Shown: positions 2,978 through 14,799 of the stretch, piece after piece | Position numbering within the stretch: position 1 is the stretch's first letter | How the letters are laid out: each line of letters begins with the position of its first letter | IMG/VR virus record: IMGVR_UViG_3300008470_000158 | Location: 1-21,022 of that record | From: a virus | Reading direction: 5' to 3' (one strand) | DNA: 21,022 nt | Position numbers and translations under genes: made by a program | Notes under the pieces: generated by a model | What the model was told of the DNA's origin: nothing | What the model saw: only the letters and a program-made list of their open reading frames with translations | Databases searched by the model: none

Positions 2978-3442
2978 ATGCCGGCAGGACGACCGACTAA
3001 ATATAAAGACGAGTATGCAGAGCAGGCATATAAGCTTTGTTTGCTTGGATTTATTGATTTAGAGCTTGCCAAATTCTTTGAGGTTGACGAGCAGACAATC
3101 AACCGATGGAAGAACGGCCACGAGGAATTTTGTCAGTCCATCAAGAGCGGCAAGCAAATTGCAAACGGAAATGTAGCCGAAAGTCTCTATAAAAGGGCGA
3201 TGGGATATGAGCACGACGAGGAAAAAGTTTTCTGCAATATGGGTGAGATAACGACCCATCAAACCGTTAAACATTACCCGCCAGATACACAGGCCGCCTC
3301 GCTATTCCTCCGCAACCGACAGCCGGACAAGTGGCGTGACAAGCAAGAAATCGATCACCAATCAAGCGACGGCTCCATGTCACCAAAAGCAACCGAAGAC
3401 GATCTAGATGCAAAGCTTAAAGAGTACGGCATTGGGGGTTGA
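2978..3442 (+). CDS. terS: Terminase small subunit
   Basis: The N-terminus MPAGRPTKYKDEYAEQAYKL is the classic opening of a phage TerS family. An HTH follows (about residues 22-45: FIDLELAKFFEVDEQTINRW), and then the conserved YKRAMGYEHDEEKVF and KHYPPDTQAASLFLRNRQPD segments. TerS oligomers recognise the pac or cos DNA and stimulate the TerL ATPase. The length of 154 aa fits the family. The start follows a GAGGAG site. The 3' end overlaps the terL start by 35 nt, if TerL begins at 3408, giving tight coupling of the two packaging subunits. Confidence 0.9.
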   Translation: MPAGRPTKYKDEYAEQAYKLCLLGFIDLELAKFFEVDEQTINRWKNGHEEFCQSIKSGKQIANGNVAESLYKRAMGYEHDEEKVFCNMGEITTHQTVKHYPPDTQAASLFLRNRQPDKWRDKQEIDHQSSDGSMSPKATEDDLDAKLKEYGIGG

Positions 3443-5912
3443 CGAACAGCTTCTCAAGATTCGCGGACTGCCGATAAGCGCAGACGAGCGCATTGCGCTA
3501 ATTGAGCGCGTCAAGGTCAAAGCCGCCCGCGAATCATTCCACGAATTCCGCCGATACATCCACCCTAAAAACGCGGTCGGATGGTTTCAGAAGGATGCGG
3601 CGGAACACCTTCAGCAATTTTATGAAGACCTGAAGGACGGAAAGAGGCCAAAACTTGTCATAGAAGCACCTCCGCAACATGGCAAGAGCATGCTTGTCGT
3701 GGACTTCATCGCGTGGCTATCTGGAAAGCGTCCGGACAATCGCACAATCTACACATCTTTTTCAGAGCGTCTCGGCATACGCGCAAACCTGTCCATGCAA
3801 AGAATGATGGGTGGCAGTCGCTACAAGTCAGTTTTTCCAGATTTCGGCATACCAGAAAAGAACGCCATCACCATATCGGCGCAAAAATTAAGGAACCGTG
3901 AGATAATCGAGTTCCTAGATTCAGACGGTTATTTCCGAAACACGACCGTTCAGGGATCAATCACCGGCGAATCGCTGGACTGCGTAGACGGTGAAACATT
4001 AATCCATACAATAAACGGCGTTTTTCCAATTAAAACATTGAAAGCTAAAGACTCTCCGGTTAAAGTATTGTCATTAGATACAACAAACGGAGAATTAAGC
4101 TATGAGGAAATATCGCATTTCAAACGTATTAAAAAGCGCGGGGTTTACAGGATCACCGATAACGATGGAAGAGTTCTTGAATGCACAGGGGATCATAGAA
4201 TCTTTACGGCAAACAGAGGATATATCGAAGCGTGTAATGTATCCGCCGGTGATTCTCTGCTGTGTGCGTTGCGGGAAGACGTACATCAAACCGGCTTGCG
4301 ACGTGGTGAAATGGCAGAGGTCGAACTGCCGAATGACGTACTGCTCGAAAGAATGCCGAAACAAAAACGCCCCCATAGCGAAGGCAGTAAAAAAGTTTTG
4401 CAGGGATTGCGGAAAAGGAATACCGAGGCAGTGGGGTGTGTTGTGCGAGGATTGTTTGACGGCAACAAGGGCAGAGAAGACGGGGGAGTTCCAGCCGATA
4501 GAGATGCCGTGCCAACAATGCGGGAAGACATTTCAGTCAGAGCATCGAGGGCGTGGAAAATACGCCTCGTTTTGTTCGATGGATTGCAAAAATTCCAATC
4601 ACTCTTCTTCAATGATGAGAGAAAGAAACCCCTCATGGCTCGGCGGGATAACGGAGGTGAGGGAGAGCAACGAAGTGAAGGCGAAGTTCAAAGCCGCGAA
4701 GAGGCAATACACGGAGAAGTTCGGGGCAGGATGCGCAGACCGGTGCCAGATGTGCGGCTCGGAAACGCGCATTCAGTTCCACCACAAGGATTTCGACCCC
4801 ACATCAAACACGGCGGTGAATTTAGCGGTTCTGTGCGAGCCGTGCCATGTTGCAACACACAACAAACGCAAGTCGCTAAAATAGAACTGATTGATGAGGA
4901 GCGCGTTTTTTACGACATAACCGTCAACAAAAACCACAACTTTTTTGCCAACGGTATACTTGTTCACAACTGCGGGGTGATCGACGATCCAATCCGTGGC
5001 CGTAAGGATGCGAACAGCACGACCGTGCGCAACGGGTGCTGGGATTGGTTCACGGATGATTTCTTCACGCGGTTCAGCGAGGATGCGGGGTTGCTGTGCA
5101 TCCTGACTCGGTGGCACATAGACGACCCGATAGGCCGACTCATAGCCTCTGACCCGTCCGTCAAGGTGCTAAAGTATAAAGCCACTGCCGAGGAAGACGA
5201 GCCGCACAGAAAGAAGGGAGAGGCTTTATTTCCCGAACTGAAATCGCTTGAATTTCTACTTGAACGAAAACACATGATGCCGGACGTGAATTGGTCTGCA
5301 CTATTCCAACAGATGCCGTACGCGCAAGGCGGCGAGATAATCAAAGGCGCGATGTTTGGGCGCTATAAGAAGTTGCCAGAACTGCTATATCGCGGAATCA
5401 TGTCAGACACGGCGCTGAAAAAGAAGCAGGCAAATGACTATCAGGTCGCGACGTGTGGCGGGCTTGGCAAGGATGACGGCAAGGTTTATATCATAGACGT
5501 GTTCCGCGAAAAGTTTGAGGCGTATGAGCTTGAAAAACGCTTCCCAGATTTCTGGGCAAAGCATAAGACACGCGACACGGGCGTATTGAGATATTTCGGC
5601 GTTGAGGATAAGGCGAGCGGCACAGAGTTGATCCAGCGCATGAAGAATACGATTGTGCCAGCGATACCCGTCAAAGCCATACCTAGAAGCATCGACAAAT
5701 ACACGCGACTGCAAGACGTGCTTGGGTTCATCGAAAGCGGTCACGTCATGCTTCCAGAAAACGCGCCATGGGTTTCTGACTTCATTGCAGAATGTGAATC
5801 GTTTACGGCTGACGACGCACACGACCACGACGACCAAGTTGATACACTGATCGACCTGATCGACGAGATGCTAGGCGGTGCGAGTGGTGGGTCTAGTCTG
5901 CTGATTTATTAG
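3408..5912 (+). CDS. terL: Terminase large subunit precursor, interrupted by an intein
   Basis: The 834-aa precursor would splice to a 504-aa TerL. The N-extein (residues 1-191) carries Walker A (APPQHGKS, residues 87-94). The C-extein begins CGVIDDP, the Walker B strand. The nuclease domain follows, with acidic motifs near SDTA, GVEDKASG and HDDQVDTLID. TerL drives ATP-dependent packaging at the portal and cuts the concatemer. The intein (residues 192-521) sits directly in front of Walker B, so unspliced protein should be inactive. The start is ATG 3408, overlapping terS; TTG 3432 is an alternative with a better-spaced AAAGAG. The gene converges with the leftward module, overlapping by 4 nt at its end. 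TerL and intein calls are both strong. Confidence 0.93.
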   Translation: MQSLKSTALGVDEQLLKIRGLPISADERIALIERVKVKAARESFHEFRRYIHPKNAVGWFQKDAAEHLQQFYEDLKDGKRPKLVIEAPPQHGKSMLVVDFIAWLSGKRPDNRTIYTSFSERLGIRANLSMQRMMGGSRYKSVFPDFGIPEKNAITISAQKLRNREIIEFLDSDGYFRNTTVQGSITGESLDCVDGETLIHTINGVFPIKTLKAKDSPVKVLSLDTTNGELSYEEISHFKRIKKRGVYRITDNDGRVLECTGDHRIFTANRGYIEACNVSAGDSLLCALREDVHQTGLRRGEMAEVELPNDVLLERMPKQKRPHSEGSKKVLQGLRKRNTEAVGCVVRGLFDGNKGREDGGVPADRDAVPTMREDISVRASRAWKIRLVLFDGLQKFQSLFFNDERKKPLMARRDNGGEGEQRSEGEVQSREEAIHGEVRGRMRRPVPDVRLGNAHSVPPQGFRPHIKHGGEFSGSVRAVPCCNTQQTQVAKIELIDEERVFYDITVNKNHNFFANGILVHNCGVIDDPIRGRKDANSTTVRNGCWDWFTDDFFTRFSEDAGLLCILTRWHIDDPIGRLIASDPSVKVLKYKATAEEDEPHRKKGEALFPELKSLEFLLERKHMMPDVNWSALFQQMPYAQGGEIIKGAMFGRYKKLPELLYRGIMSDTALKKKQANDYQVATCGGLGKDDGKVYIIDVFREKFEAYELEKRFPDFWAKHKTRDTGVLRYFGVEDKASGTELIQRMKNTIVPAIPVKAIPRSIDKYTRLQDVLGFIESGHVMLPENAPWVSDFIAECESFTADDAHDHDDQVDTLIDLIDEMLGGASGGSSLLIY
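4038..4066 (+). promoter_or_regulatory. Candidate promoter inside the TerL intein
   Basis: TTGAAA (4038-4043) is separated by 17 nt from TAAAGT (4061-4066). This would start RNA near 4073, just upstream of the GGAG at 4089-4092 that precedes ATG 4102 of the nested HNH gene. The -10 match is only 4 of 6 and the region is AT-rich coding DNA, so chance is possible. Confidence 0.3.
4102..4884 (+). CDS. HNH homing endonuclease with zinc fingers, nested in the +1 frame of the intein
   Basis: This frame, +1 to TerL/intein, encodes up to 260 aa. Cys pairs form three CxxC-type knuckles (C54/C57 with C81/C85; C100/C103 with C115/C118; C137/C140 with C158/C162). The linker RNPSWLGGIT (175-184) is typical of phage HNH enzymes. 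The HNH core has C215xxC218, H227-H228, N240, C245xxC248 and H253. Such enzymes nick or cut an empty target allele and drive homing of their element. ATG 4102 has GGAG 9 nt upstream; ATG 4237 is an alternative that starts right after intein block B. The stop (TAG 4882-4884) falls exactly where the intein C-terminal splicing domain resumes. The domain call is strong and expression is inferred. It would be a free-standing protein unless a frameshift links it to the intein. Confidence 0.85.
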   Translation: MRKYRISNVLKSAGFTGSPITMEEFLNAQGIIESLRQTEDISKRVMYPPVILCCVRCGKTYIKPACDVVKWQRSNCRMTYCSKECRNKNAPIAKAVKKFCRDCGKGIPRQWGVLCEDCLTATRAEKTGEFQPIEMPCQQCGKTFQSEHRGRGKYASFCSMDCKNSNHSSSMMRERNPSWLGGITEVRESNEVKAKFKAAKRQYTEKFGAGCADRCQMCGSETRIQFHHKDFDPTSNTAVNLAVLCEPCHVATHNKRKSLK

Positions 5913-6097
5913 ACCTCTGCCGAGATGCGGACTGCATTTATCACGCTATGCGAATCTCCATCGTAAGACCAATAAGTGATTATATCGGCACCCAATTCTC
6001 TGACCACAGCCCCTGTTCGGTCTGCAAATGCAACAAGAGACTCCTTAATTTCAGCCTCCGCCCTTACTTTTTCTTCTCTGACTTCTTCTGTGTTCAT
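5909..6097 (-). CDS. Small hypothetical protein, leftward module (62 aa)
   Basis: It is read leftward from ATG at 6097, with GGAGGGA upstream on that strand. The N-terminal half is a charged helix (MNTEEVREEKVRAEAEIKES). The C-terminal half is strand-like with ITYWSYDGD. Its start overlaps the stop of the preceding leftward gene by a few bases, and its stop overlaps the terL stop, making a tail-to-tail junction. It is the last gene of a five-gene leftward operon. No family recognised. Confidence 0.6.
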   Translation of the reverse strand: MNTEEVREEKVRAEAEIKESLVAFADRTGAVVRELGADIITYWSYDGDSHSVINAVRISAEV

Positions 6098-6543
6098 TTC
6101 TTCCCTCCAATTTCTTTTAATACAGCCGCCTCAATCTGCTCCCAGCATGCTTTGCCCGAACTGTAACCCACCCATCCATCCCAAATTTGGCGGTAAAACG
6201 GCATCCGCTTTTCGGGCGTTTCAAGTTGCCGCCAGCAATCTTCGCACAGCGGGAAGCATCCAGCCCCTCGCATGTAGTATGTCGTGTGCCATTTTACGAA
6301 GAGCCACGGTCGATTGCATCGTTTGCATGTTCCGTATGATGGCGCAAGAAACCGCTCTATTCCTGACCTTGCCTTTTTCGTATTATCAGCAAGCCGAGAC
6401 GCAATCCGGTTAAAGCTGATCGCGTCGTTTATGGCGGCCTTTATGTTTGTCCATAATGACGAGAAGGCGGCGTTTAACATCCCGAATTGACCCGTCATCG
6501 TATTATCAATCGCTGCTTTCATGCGTTTTTCTTCGTCTGTCAT
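6094..6543 (-). CDS. Hypothetical protein with CxxC / CxxC zinc-binding motif (149 aa)
   Basis: The ATG at 6543 lies behind GGAGGAG on the minus strand. The N-terminal 65 residues are helical (MTDEEKRMKAAIDNTMTGQF...). A treble-clef-like segment follows, with CKRC (about residue 73) and CEDC (about residue 100), flanked by aromatic residues (RPWLFVKWHTTYYMRGAG). The C-terminal part is rich in Trp/Tyr. Two CxxC pairs 25 residues apart suggest one zinc site, possibly for nucleic-acid or protein binding. It is sandwiched, with overlapping ends, between the HTH gene and the last small gene of the module. Function is not identifiable. Confidence 0.65.
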   Translation of the reverse strand: MTDEEKRMKAAIDNTMTGQFGMLNAAFSSLWTNIKAAINDAISFNRIASRLADNTKKARSGIERFLAPSYGTCKRCNRPWLFVKWHTTYYMRGAGCFPLCEDCWRQLETPEKRMPFYRQIWDGWVGYSSGKACWEQIEAAVLKEIGGKK

Positions 6544-12335: not shown

Positions 12336-12755
12336 ATGGCAATCTATTTCGGACTGACTCCTGCTGAGAAGCTCGTTATCGCTGATGCATATTATGGCGA
12401 AGAGTCGCATATCAGCCACTTCGATTGGGAGAACTGGTCGGGCGGCGAGCGCAAGGCGGGGCTGGTTCAGGCAGAGCGCGAGATAGACGCATGGTTCGGA
12501 ATCAGTCTAGAGCAATCGTTCAGCGAAACCTCATTTCCAGTTGATGGATGCCCAAACTATCGCCCTGACAATGCGGTGTTTGAGCACGCCTTTTTCATCC
12601 TCGACAACACGGCTCGCACGAAGACCGAGAGCGACGGCCCTGAAATGATCGAGTCTGCGGAATATCAGGAAGAGGAAAAGAACCACGGGCTGAATATGGC
12701 TCCGATGGCATTGACTCTAATGAAATTGGCAACGAACAGGATTGAGTTTGGCTAA
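12336..12755 (+). CDS. Head-tail connector / head completion protein (139 aa)
   Basis: The sequence starts MAIYFGLTPAEKLVIADAYY, with Trp-containing W-E-N-W and an A-x-x-x-L helix pattern (GLVQAEREIDAWFG). This matches the short helical adaptor proteins (DnaT-like/gp6-like) that sit between portal and tail. The C-terminal part is helical (NMAPMALTLMKLATNR). It starts after GAGGT. The gene converges with the leftward alpha-CTD-like gene, overlapping by a few bases. Adaptor assignment comes from context and pattern, not from firm homology. Confidence 0.5.
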   Translation: MAIYFGLTPAEKLVIADAYYGEESHISHFDWENWSGGERKAGLVQAEREIDAWFGISLEQSFSETSFPVDGCPNYRPDNAVFEHAFFILDNTARTKTESDGPEMIESAEYQEEEKNHGLNMAPMALTLMKLATNRIEFG

Positions 12756-13030
12756 CGCAATGAAAGCTCTTTTTCTATATCTGAAATTCTTCTTTTGTAC
12801 TCCAGCACAAGCGAGTACAAATCTTCGGGGGTGCGCTTTTCATACTTACGAATCTTTGATAGTTTGTTTCCATAAAATTCGCGGACAATGCTAATGGATT
12901 TTTTGCCAACATTTCGATACATGCCAAGCTCTTCGCGGCTGGCGTATTTGGGATCTATTCCGTCTGAAACAAGCAACTCAATGAGTTTAGCGCATCGACT
13001 CGGCAGTCCGTTATAGTTTTTCATTTTCAT
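12752..13030 (-). CDS. Small protein resembling RNA polymerase alpha-CTD (helix-hairpin-helix) (92 aa)
   Basis: It is read leftward from ATG 13030 (ATG 13024 is an alternative). Residues about 5-53 (YNGLPSRCAKLIELLVSDGI, then SREELGMYRNVGKKSISIV) closely follow the alpha-CTD pattern: a helix with L-x-x-R, a hydrophobic strand-helix, then the xRNxGxKSxxEI hairpin that binds DNA minor groove and activators. The rest is a charged helix (residues 55-92). In bacteria the alpha-CTD contacts UP elements and regulators. A phage-borne copy could act as a transcription factor or DNA-binding accessory. It is an isolated leftward gene in a rightward operon, so it may be a moron. Confidence 0.6.
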   Translation of the reverse strand: MKMKNYNGLPSRCAKLIELLVSDGIDPKYASREELGMYRNVGKKSISIVREFYGNKLSKIRKYEKRTPEDLYSLVLEYKRRISDIEKELSLR

Positions 13031-13036
13031 AAACCA

Positions 13037-13066
13037 ACCATAAACCGAAAACACACCGAATGGCAA
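13037..13066 (-). promoter_or_regulatory. Weak candidate promoter for the alpha-CTD-like gene
   Basis: On the minus strand TTGCCA (13066-13061), an 18-nt spacer and TATGGT (13042-13037) end 6 nt before ATG 13030. This would make a leaderless mRNA, agreeing with the absence of a clear ribosome site. The match is partial and overlaps the MuF start. Confidence 0.25.
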
Positions 13067-14799
13067 CTGAAAAACAGCGCGGAGACAAGCTAAAGAAAGA
13101 TATTGCCGCTGGTGAGAAATCATTGGGCGGCATTCTTTCTAGGCGCAAACGTGCCGTGACAGGAGCCGTCGCACAGTTCGCCGGGACAAAGGGTTTCTCC
13201 ACATCTGCAACCGTCCGCAATGGCCTATATTCTGAGCTTGCCAAGGAATATCAGACGCTCAATACAGACATCAACAAATGGACGGTTGACAGCGTAGACG
13301 ACACGGCAAAGCAATGGTGGGGATATGCCAAGGATGATCTTCCAGCGGGTAAGGTTGCGACATTCGGTGCATTCTCTGAAAAGCACGTACAAGATATAAT
13401 CGGCAGAATCAATCCCGCATCCATCGGCGAACAGGTTGCCGTAAACGCACAGATCGGCGGGATGCTTCAGAATGACATCCGCGTTTTAAGATCAGCAGTC
13501 AGCACAACCATTGCAGAGGGCGCGGTTGAGGGACTCACGAACAAACAGCTTGCAGACCGCATGAAGTCGAAGGTAATCGATGCGGCGGGATCATTTAAAT
13601 TTATCGATGCGGCAGGACGGCGACAGTCGGCAGACAACTATTTTGGGATGCTCAACCGGACGCTACACGCAACGGCTGCGCGGGATAGCTACATTGCAAC
13701 GGCGACGGATGCCGGATTTGACTTGTATCAAATCGAGGGCGGCGTTACGGGATCGAGCGCGGACAACCCGAGCGACCCTTGCGATCAATGGGCAGGGCGT
13801 ATCATATCGATGACGGGGCAGACTAAGGGTTATCCGACGTATCAGGATGCTATCTCGGCAGGCGTATTTCATCCTCAATGTTGCGTATCTGAAACAGAGG
13901 TTATATGCCCAGACCTTCAGGCGGCATCACGCTTTAAATACTCAGGCCAAATGGTCAAGATTAAATATGCCAGTGGTAATACGCTTTCCGTTACCCCAAA
14001 TCACATGCTTCTCACCGATCAAGGATTCGCCCCCGCCTGCTCGCTCGCAAAGGGCGACAACGTATTGCGCCGCATTGAAGGAAATGGGCTTGGCGGCGGT
14101 AGTCCAGATGTAGAGCGGGAGCCATCCACAATCAAGGACGTATTTATGGCGGTCTGGAAGTGTGGCGGCGTGCTTGCCACTAAGATGCCAGTGTCCGCCG
14201 AAGATTTCCACGGCGATGGAGAATTTGGGAATGGCGATGTCGATGTTGTATTTGCCGACCGCCTTCTGTTGGATGATACTACCGGAAACCCTATCACCAA
14301 GCCACTCGGCAAGCATGGTTTCGCTTTTGCTGACATTGTGAAGTTTCCCTTCGTTGGCGATAGCTCGCTTGCAAAGGTGCTCCTCTGTCTGGCGGGAGCC
14401 ACGAACCGCATCGTGAGCGGCCTTGGTGTGCGCCATTCGCCAGTCTGCGCCCCTGAGCTTCTGGGTAAGGACGAGCTGATCGGTTTTGCTCCTGATGTTT
14501 ACACCTGCGGAAACAAGGGCGTCTCTGACTCTGTCCTGATTGACATGCAGAATTTTGCTGATTTTCCAGTATCCGAGTCCGCTATCATAGAGAGAGACTA
14601 CGTTGTCGGTGTCGATATGTTTAGGTTTAGCGGGCATGTTTATGATCTCCAGTGTTTAAGTACACTGTATTACGCCAACGGATACGTGTCAAGCAACTGC
14701 GTCCATTTCATTCGCGCAATCATGCCGTCAGAAATTAAAGCGGCGAAGGTTGAACAGAAGGCCGAGAAGAAAGAGGCGAAGGAGTTGCCAGATGGCTGA
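13060..14799 (+). CDS. MuF-like minor head protein precursor, interrupted by an intein
   Basis: The 579-aa precursor splices to 306 aa. The N-extein (1-273) is helical with the MuF/SPP1 gp7-like segments (GLTNKQLADRMKSKVIDAAG, LNRTLHATAARDSYIATATD, PSDPCDQWAGRI) and ends HPQ. Splicing restores HPQ-CVHF, the HPxCxH motif that closes this family. MuF proteins are minor head components that link the portal region with DNA entry. The C-extein has a charged helix (KAAKVEQKAEKKEAKEL). The start at ATG 13060 has no good ribosome site, and no ATG lies upstream in frame. The stop overlaps the next gene. Confidence 0.85.
   Translation: MATEKQRGDKLKKDIAAGEKSLGGILSRRKRAVTGAVAQFAGTKGFSTSATVRNGLYSELAKEYQTLNTDINKWTVDSVDDTAKQWWGYAKDDLPAGKVATFGAFSEKHVQDIIGRINPASIGEQVAVNAQIGGMLQNDIRVLRSAVSTTIAEGAVEGLTNKQLADRMKSKVIDAAGSFKFIDAAGRRQSADNYFGMLNRTLHATAARDSYIATATDAGFDLYQIEGGVTGSSADNPSDPCDQWAGRIISMTGQTKGYPTYQDAISAGVFHPQCCVSETEVICPDLQAASRFKYSGQMVKIKYASGNTLSVTPNHMLLTDQGFAPACSLAKGDNVLRRIEGNGLGGGSPDVEREPSTIKDVFMAVWKCGGVLATKMPVSAEDFHGDGEFGNGDVDVVFADRLLLDDTTGNPITKPLGKHGFAFADIVKFPFVGDSSLAKVLLCLAGATNRIVSGLGVRHSPVCAPELLGKDELIGFAPDVYTCGNKGVSDSVLIDMQNFADFPVSESAIIERDYVVGVDMFRFSGHVYDLQCLSTLYYANGYVSSNCVHFIRAIMPSEIKAAKVEQKAEKKEAKELPDG
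13942..14637 (-). CDS. Vsr-like (EDxHD-type) homing endonuclease encoded antisense to the MuF intein
   Basis: The 231-aa protein is read leftward from ATG 14637, with GGAG 9 nt upstream (14650-14647). Residues 12-50 form an HTH-like DNA-binding domain (VVSLYDSGLGYWKISKILHV), similar to those at the ends of phage homing enzymes. The catalytic region SKSETMLAEWL (E106), KYNIDIAIP (D133), VEIFGGHWH (E144, H149, H151), then PDRHKYVL and CGWLPLYIW has the order and hydrophobic pattern of Vsr-fold nucleases, including the EDxHD family (I-Bth0305I type). Such enzymes are known from environmental split-intein loci. Codons align exactly with sense codons, so the intein avoids TTA, CTA and TCA from 13945 to 14637. 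The next sense TCA supplies the antisense TGA. Domain call good; activity and expression inferred. Confidence 0.8.
   Translation of the reverse strand: MPAKPKHIDTDNVVSLYDSGLGYWKISKILHVNQDRVRDALVSAGVNIRSKTDQLVLTQKLRGADWRMAHTKAAHDAVRGSRQTEEHLCKRAIANEGKLHNVSKSETMLAEWLGDRVSGSIIQQKAVGKYNIDIAIPKFSIAVEIFGGHWHLSGKHAATLPDRHKYVLDCGWLPLYIWTTAAKPISFNAAQYVVALCERAGGGESLIGEKHVIWGNGKRITTGIFNLDHLA
14664..14692 (-). promoter_or_regulatory. Candidate antisense promoter inside the MuF intein
   Basis: On the minus strand TTGACA (14692-14687, perfect -35) lies 17 nt from TACAGT (14669-14664). This predicts a start near 14657, then GGAG and the ATG at 14637. The first 12 bases, TTGACACGTATC, match copy 1 of the shared motif at 7406 in 11 of 12. 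The -35 ends five bases inside the intein C-terminal boundary. Chance cannot be excluded. Confidence 0.45.

Follow-up and report, generated by a model that had tools for sequence, protein, structure and literature searches.

The gene for a MuF-like minor capsid protein in the stretch of viral DNA analysed here (21,022 nucleotides, hereafter the window) very probably carries a mobile intein whose homing endonuclease is encoded by a separate antisense gene, codon-aligned with the intein and lying wholly inside it; splicing, transcription, cleavage and homing are predicted steps of this reading. With somewhat less assurance, we consider it likely that such antisense-nuclease inteins form a widespread class in which the promoter, ribosome-binding site and start codon of the nuclease are drawn from the splicing motifs, the promoter has reshaped the intein C-terminus, and the nuclease would be expressed early by the host polymerase. 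The features of the locus are the following.

13060 to 14799, plus strand: gene for a MuF-like minor capsid protein of 579 aa (Phage_min_cap2; PHROG minor head protein) with an in-frame intein
13879 to 14697, plus strand: intein of 273 aa, MuF residues 274-546, from Cys1 to Ser-Ser-Asn/Cys+1, assigned from empty-site homologs, blocks and a Hint fold (Z 13.0)
13942 to 14637, minus strand: antisense Vsr/EDxHD-like putative homing endonuclease of 231 aa, helix-turn-helix (HTH) plus nuclease
13993 to 14004, plus strand: block B of the intein, T-P-N-H, overlapped by antisense V-I-W-G
14185 to 14187, 14206 to 14208 and 14320 to 14322, minus strand: codons of H151, E144 and E106
14239 to 14241, minus strand: codon of the candidate catalytic D133, present in 116/116 of the family
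14635 to 14637, minus strand: ATG start, the reverse complement of CAT, the block F His codon
14635 to 14652, plus strand: block F, H-V-Y-D-L-Q, whose codons double as antisense start codon and Shine-Dalgarno sequence
14647 to 14650, minus strand: Shine-Dalgarno GGAG, the reverse complement of CTCC in the D-L-Q codons of block F
14664 to 14669, minus strand: predicted -10 hexamer TACAGT, after a 17-nt spacer, within S-T-L-Y codons
14687 to 14692, minus strand: predicted -35 hexamer TTGACA of the antisense gene, within the block G codons V-S-S-N

The MuF frame (13060-14799, plus strand) runs without interruption along its whole length, and homology to exact empty alleles places the intein junctions after HPQ and before CVHF, with the insertion directly in front of the extein Cys of HPxC. 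An earlier reading of this DNA, made from the letters only (the sequence-only reading), had described a 231-aa ORF on the opposite strand with an ATG start, a TGA stop and GGAG nine nucleotides from the ATG, codon-aligned with an intein that remains intact in the sense frame. All of this holds: the antisense ORF at 13942-14637 (minus strand) has each of these signals, is codon-aligned with the open MuF frame and spans intein residues 22-253, and the sense frame retains blocks A, B (TPNH), F (GHVYDLQ) and G (VSSN/C). Elsewhere in the window, a 123-aa minus-strand ORF (12752-13123) overlaps the start of the MuF gene and by eye resembles a helix-hairpin-helix or RNA polymerase alpha C-terminal domain, and a 149-aa minus-strand ORF (6094-6543) with CxxC motifs lies amid plus-strand structural genes; PHROG searches gave no match for either.

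On the sense strand, the insert in MuF has Cys1, block B, a C-terminal Asn and a modelled Hint fold, the features of a class 1 intein, and is predicted to splice. Among 50 aligned inteins, Cys1 and the block B His (intein residue 42) are invariant and the Asn before Cys+1 is nearly so, and TxxH occurs in 109/116. The sense model superimposes on the Mtu RecA intein (2in0) with a Z of 13.0 and 1.6 A over 106 residues; its N- and C-terminal parts are confident, and residues 129-221 mostly have a pLDDT below 50. Family searches with the sense frame returned no nuclease match, and no in-frame endonuclease was found between blocks B and F. Where block G could be assigned, 54 inteins end in SN/C and 34 in HN/C; the window intein has Asn and then Cys+1 with Ser as the penultimate residue (SSN/C, 14689-14697), and a Ser in place of His at this position could slow splicing. 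In another locus, a MuF-like protein (L005:4751-7763) seems to hold two different inteins, only one of them with an antisense nuclease.

The sequence-only reading had proposed a Vsr-like nuclease on the opposite strand and structure prediction as a check on it, and the prediction gives the Vsr/I-Bth0305I fold for the 231-aa protein. The AlphaFold model, built with 58 homologs, has a mean pLDDT of 91.4 and consists of an N-terminal HTH and a C-terminal nuclease. It matches Vsr (1cw0) with a Z of 11.0 and 2.4 A over 115 residues at 16% identity, 3hrl with a Z of 10.2 and I-Bth0305I (3r3p) with a Z of 9.3. Foldseek by itself gave Vsr at E 0.017 and nothing below 0.001, and the structure comparison that followed it was the more informative. 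Assignment to a family likewise required profiles: searches with the single sequence gave weak matches only (Pfam MTES_1575, E 0.0018; PHROG homing endonuclease, 3e-4), and the sequence profile matched 3hrl at E 1.5e-5 and 3r3p at E 0.0017. Model and profile place the protein in the Vsr-type PD-(D/E)xK fold. Five residues had been named as catalytic, and four of them stand: among 116 distinct antisense proteins, E106 is conserved in 113, D133 in all, E144 in 114 and H151 in 111, whereas H149 is found in only 50 and has to be dropped. The conserved acidic and His residues are candidate catalytic residues of a Vsr/EDxHD nuclease. Several longer antisense nucleases (L005, L008, L056 and G004:C4:229133-229291) appear to have a second, tandem N-terminal HTH, which possibly lengthens the recognised site. 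In the 132 loci, the antisense protein had no relative located outside an intein, and eight bacterial genomes gave only short additional HTH-like or partial matches.

Both frames are kept open throughout the family. Across 132 relatives, most of them found via patterns that favour an intact nuclease and most from metagenomic loci, the sense frame of the intein is open in all and the nuclease frame in 131. In the first 53 relatives, the frame that is codon-aligned and complementary to the nuclease has no stop over the nuclease in any case, and the remaining two antisense frames hold 3-31 and 4-15 stops; the codon-aligned complementary frame is also stop-free over the nuclease in all 79 loci of a later set. 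An estimate limited to the 102 loci with sufficient extein codons predicted 446 codons that would break the sense frame, with none seen, and 603 that would break the nuclease, with one seen. At the level of sequence, these counts confirm that the overprinting goes beyond chance and that the antisense ORF is real and conserved. When the search started from the sense intein, both frames were open in 77 of 80 loci, the nuclease was broken in three and the intein in none. The sequence-only reading had named two observations that would count against it. One was a lack of homologs with conserved catalytic residues, and relatives proved numerous, with the residues conserved. The other was an antisense frame broken beside an intact intein; this is rare (1/132 and 3/80) and is expected where a selfish nuclease decays. 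That the nuclease is sometimes lost and the intein frame never fits a dispensable selfish nuclease within an essential host gene. In four loci (L154, L198, L201 and L225), the sense frame is intact and a stop lies within the antisense nuclease, an apparent decay of the homing enzyme. A search with the C-terminal splicing segment found no MuF intein lacking the antisense nuclease among 68 distinct loci, a sample that is biased because the search pattern includes GHVY(D/N)L, in which the His codon doubles as the start codon of the nuclease.

A Ka/Ks comparison of the two frames had also been proposed; when it was run, with every change scored as synonymous or not in both frames, it revealed purifying selection on the antisense frame. 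Among seven Guernseyvirinae phages, the omega values, which are pairwise and approximate and come from pairs that are not phylogenetically independent, were 0.18 in the sense frame and about 1.0 in the antisense frame of the N-extein, and 0.05-0.09 and 0.6-1.0, respectively, in the C-extein. Over the nuclease, they were 0.33-0.57 for the sense and 0.15-0.26 for the antisense frame, and in the middle of the overlap 0.44-0.64 and 0.06-0.09; in the five closest of these phages, the sense value in the middle was 0.80-0.86. The C-terminal splicing segment, outside the antisense ORF, had a sense omega of 0.02-0.07. From this pattern, the constrained product of the middle of the overlap is the antisense protein, and the middle of the sense product comes near to a free linker; both frames appear constrained at the ends of the overlap, where the splicing blocks sit. 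In divergent pairs of loci, the fastest-changing codon position in N-exteins is sense position 3 in nearly all pairs, and over the nuclease it is sense position 1, the wobble position of the antisense frame.

The predicted expression signals of the nuclease coincide with the antisense of splicing motifs F and G. The Leu codon of block F is CTC in 65 of 81 loci; among the 78 loci with sufficient data, CTC was seen 63 times against 17.5 expected from the usage of each gene (z 13.5). The block F His is encoded by CAT in 50/60 and otherwise by CAC, which reads as a GTG start on the antisense strand (p 5e-10), and where block F has no His, there is often an ATG two codons beyond. Among 99 distinct loci, a perfect sigma-70 promoter (TTGACA-17-TATAAT) occurs in 22, and 38 score 11 or more matches out of 12; the position, between block F and the extein junction, is mostly the same. 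Control windows antisense to N-exteins never reached 11 matches (0/1,920), and 0.16% reached 10. Synonymous-codon shuffles gave the antisense promoter a mean z of +2.9, so that the amino acids alone do not account for it. A second, non-overlapping set had a promoter with at least 11 matches in 13/68; the sense strand and terminase inteins had no such promoter. Ser-Asn inteins have their -35 box at the junction (mean z 4.0). Of the His-Asn inteins, 9/41 show a perfect extended -10 (TGnTATAAT), against 0.26% of controls, and so does Snoke. The class with a penultimate Ser is the one whose junction codons make the -35 box, and the comparison suggests that the promoter may have moulded a splicing residue, from His-Asn to Ser-Ser-Asn. 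The candidate promoter of the window itself (TTGACA-17-TACAGT, 14692-14664) matches only 4/6 positions of the -10 box, and the promoter-like count of that region is within the shuffle expectation; the case for a promoter depends on the family. Roughly half of the loci have no clear consensus promoter and may use another expression route. As promoter, ribosome-binding site, start and stop all lie within the intein, the nuclease gene would move as a complete unit.

Relatives are widely distributed, in hundreds of phages. A tblastn search found relatives of the antisense protein in 114 cultured-phage records, 93 of them covering at least 80% of the query, and the matching regions are annotated as head-morphogenesis, MuF, minor-capsid or hypothetical proteins. 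IMG/VR gave 53 loci by single sequence and 487 stretches by profile, and 26 loci with relatives were found in bacterial genomes of many phyla. A search with the MuF gene of phage Snoke matched 497 phage records, 70 of which have at least 80% of the gene; among the 60 records listed, the others aligned mostly as a pair of flanking segments. An uninterrupted MuF site (HPN/CRS), with 816 bp absent, is seen in phages fFiEco03 and AG11. The inteins of Snoke and of Salmonella phages are 95-97% identical, against 67-88% for the upstream exteins. In the near upstream flank, two phages have 94% identity and two others 68-71%, a difference that homing with co-conversion tracts of unequal length would be expected to leave. 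These alignments, with their empty sites and their nearly identical inteins within diverged genes, show that the intein has moved laterally. Alternative sites in MuF also have the cassette, and an intein with the antisense nuclease interrupts the uracil-DNA glycosylase (UDG) domain in fusions of UDG with DNA polymerase A (L328:1298-4831 and L344:439-4455). The proposal that the intein moves with an enzyme encoded on its reverse strand gains support from exact empty sites and lateral movement, with cleavage and homing as predicted steps.

The window contains a second overprinted intein, in the terminase gene.

3408 to 5912, plus strand: terminase large subunit gene, 834 aa, with an in-frame intein
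3981 to 4970, plus strand: terminase intein, 330 aa, residues 192-521
4102 to 4884, plus strand: 260-aa HNH endonuclease, overprinted on the terminase intein in its +1 frame (phrog_1271, E 1e-12)

A single-sequence search of viral contigs with this HNH protein found nothing, and a profile of three sequences found 19 IMG/VR relatives. In 14 of the 19, Gordonia phage Clown included, the terminase-intein frame is open and the HNH is retained in its +1 frame, and the same holds for Synechococcus phage S-EIV1. Together with the antisense case in MuF, this same-strand case indicates that overprinting of intein and nuclease seemingly arose at least twice, with different frame relations.

We propose that the sense strand, translated within MuF, would yield two Hint halves joined by a long, nearly unconstrained middle, and that the intein protein would splice itself out of MuF. 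The antisense strand would be a self-contained transcription unit in which a sigma-70 promoter and a Shine-Dalgarno/ATG start drive the HTH-Vsr-like nuclease. The most likely target of this enzyme is the intein-less allele, cut at the HPx/CRC codons of MuF, and repair of the cut would copy the intein into the empty allele. A promoter read by the host could give early nuclease, independent of the late capsid operon, a timing that presumes MuF to be a late gene.

Other readings of the locus were weighed against this one. Genes poor in TTA, CTA and TCA could keep a codon-aligned antisense frame open without any protein being made; this frame relation does let long antisense ORFs arise easily, and the window has further antisense ORFs of 80-240 aa. 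As an account of the 231-aa ORF, however, such a by-product is scarcely credible. The antisense omega of 0.06-0.26 compares with about 1 in the flanking N-extein, nuclease residues are near-invariant in 116 distinct proteins with a high-confidence Vsr fold, codon choice in block F is selected for the Shine-Dalgarno sequence and start, and the promoter is enriched; selection and fold refute this reading. A real nuclease gene opposite a sense frame that is only a tolerated, unspliced insertion would resemble the ShiLan domain, in which an HNH is hidden without splicing domains (PMC11855218), and would agree with the nearly neutral sense middle (omega 0.44-0.86). We hold this for highly improbable, since Cys1 and the block B His are invariant and the Asn before Cys+1 is nearly so in the 50 inteins, the sense model has an intein fold (Z 13.0), the insertion lies exactly before Cys+1 and the sense omega is 0.02-0.07 in the C-terminal splicing segment beyond the ORF.

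The two further alternatives accept the nuclease as a selected product. It might serve a purpose other than homing, such as Vsr repair or superinfection exclusion, given that the mismatch endonuclease Vsr (Z 11.0) is among its closest structural matches, beside I-Bth0305I (Z 9.3). We judge this quite unlikely, because at every examined locus the nuclease lies opposite an open intein frame, and the intein has a sporadic distribution and exact empty alleles, is near-identical in diverged genes with signs of co-conversion, occupies several insertion sites and unrelated genes, and can have a decayed nuclease beside an intact sense frame. Somewhat less improbable, though still doubtful, is a homing nuclease expressed by antisense read-through with no promoter of its own: nuclease-oriented genes lie upstream of the nuclease in Snoke and LSPA1, and about half of the loci have no clear promoter. 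Against it, 38/99 and 13/68 loci have a sigma-70 promoter that is perfect or nearly so and lies at a constant distance, which exceeds what the amino acids require.

In the accepted view, homing endonucleases are either free-standing, from introns, or fused to an intein (PMC3943268). The MuF intein shares with canonical homing inteins (PI-SceI, RecA and VMA, with in-frame LAGLIDADG or HNH) the Hint domain, insertion before Cys+1, a sporadic distribution with empty sites and an endonuclease inside the element; unlike in these, the nuclease is a separate protein of the opposite strand with its own predicted promoter, ribosome-binding site and start. The ShiLan domain is an in-frame insertion in a mycobacteriophage DNA methylase that contains an out-of-frame HNH on the same strand and has no splicing domains (PMC11855218). 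Like the MuF intein, the ShiLan domain/Pacc40 insertion hides its endonuclease in another frame, and homing was likewise deduced from distribution (PMC11855218). ShiLan differs in being a same-strand HNH with no splicing domain and no detectable ribosome-binding site (PMC11855218), whereas the MuF cassette is antisense and Vsr-like, with an intein fold, a predicted promoter and a ribosome-binding site. The terminase HNH is on the same strand, as in ShiLan, yet lies within a real intein. I-Bth0305I, an EDxHD enzyme, has a Vsr-like catalytic domain and a separate DNA-binding part, as the antisense nuclease does, and both are nucleases of phage mobile elements; the former was deposited as a mobile-intron protein (3r3p), and the latter is instead found in inteins and has an N-terminal HTH. 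The mismatch endonuclease Vsr is the best fold match, to which the antisense nuclease adds an HTH, and here the latter is found only inside inteins. An intein-containing capsid morphogenesis protein has been described in the UPWr Salmonella phages, with the antisense gene unmentioned in the available part of that report (PMC8425127). Our literature searches turned up no description of an endonuclease encoded antisense within an intein, and one preprint on actinobacteriophage inteins may cover part of this ground. That preprint, by Gosselin, Arsenault and Gogarten, is said to describe a non-canonical intein architecture. New here are the nuclease expression signals in the antisense of splicing motifs. 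The cassette in further genes and the second overprinted endonuclease go beyond the sequence-only reading.

One stretch of DNA is apparently under selection in five respects simultaneously, as it encodes a splicing protein and, on the opposite strand, an unrelated nuclease, and also contains a promoter, a ribosome-binding site and a start codon. To our knowledge, the antisense-nuclease intein is among the most compact overprinted mobile elements. Databases mostly label these loci just as capsid or hypothetical proteins, and they offer a natural system to study antisense overprinting. The element suggests that inteins in late genes may commonly resort to nucleases encoded out of frame, and it leads to the testable idea that the timing of nuclease expression, besides the presence of the nuclease, governs homing.
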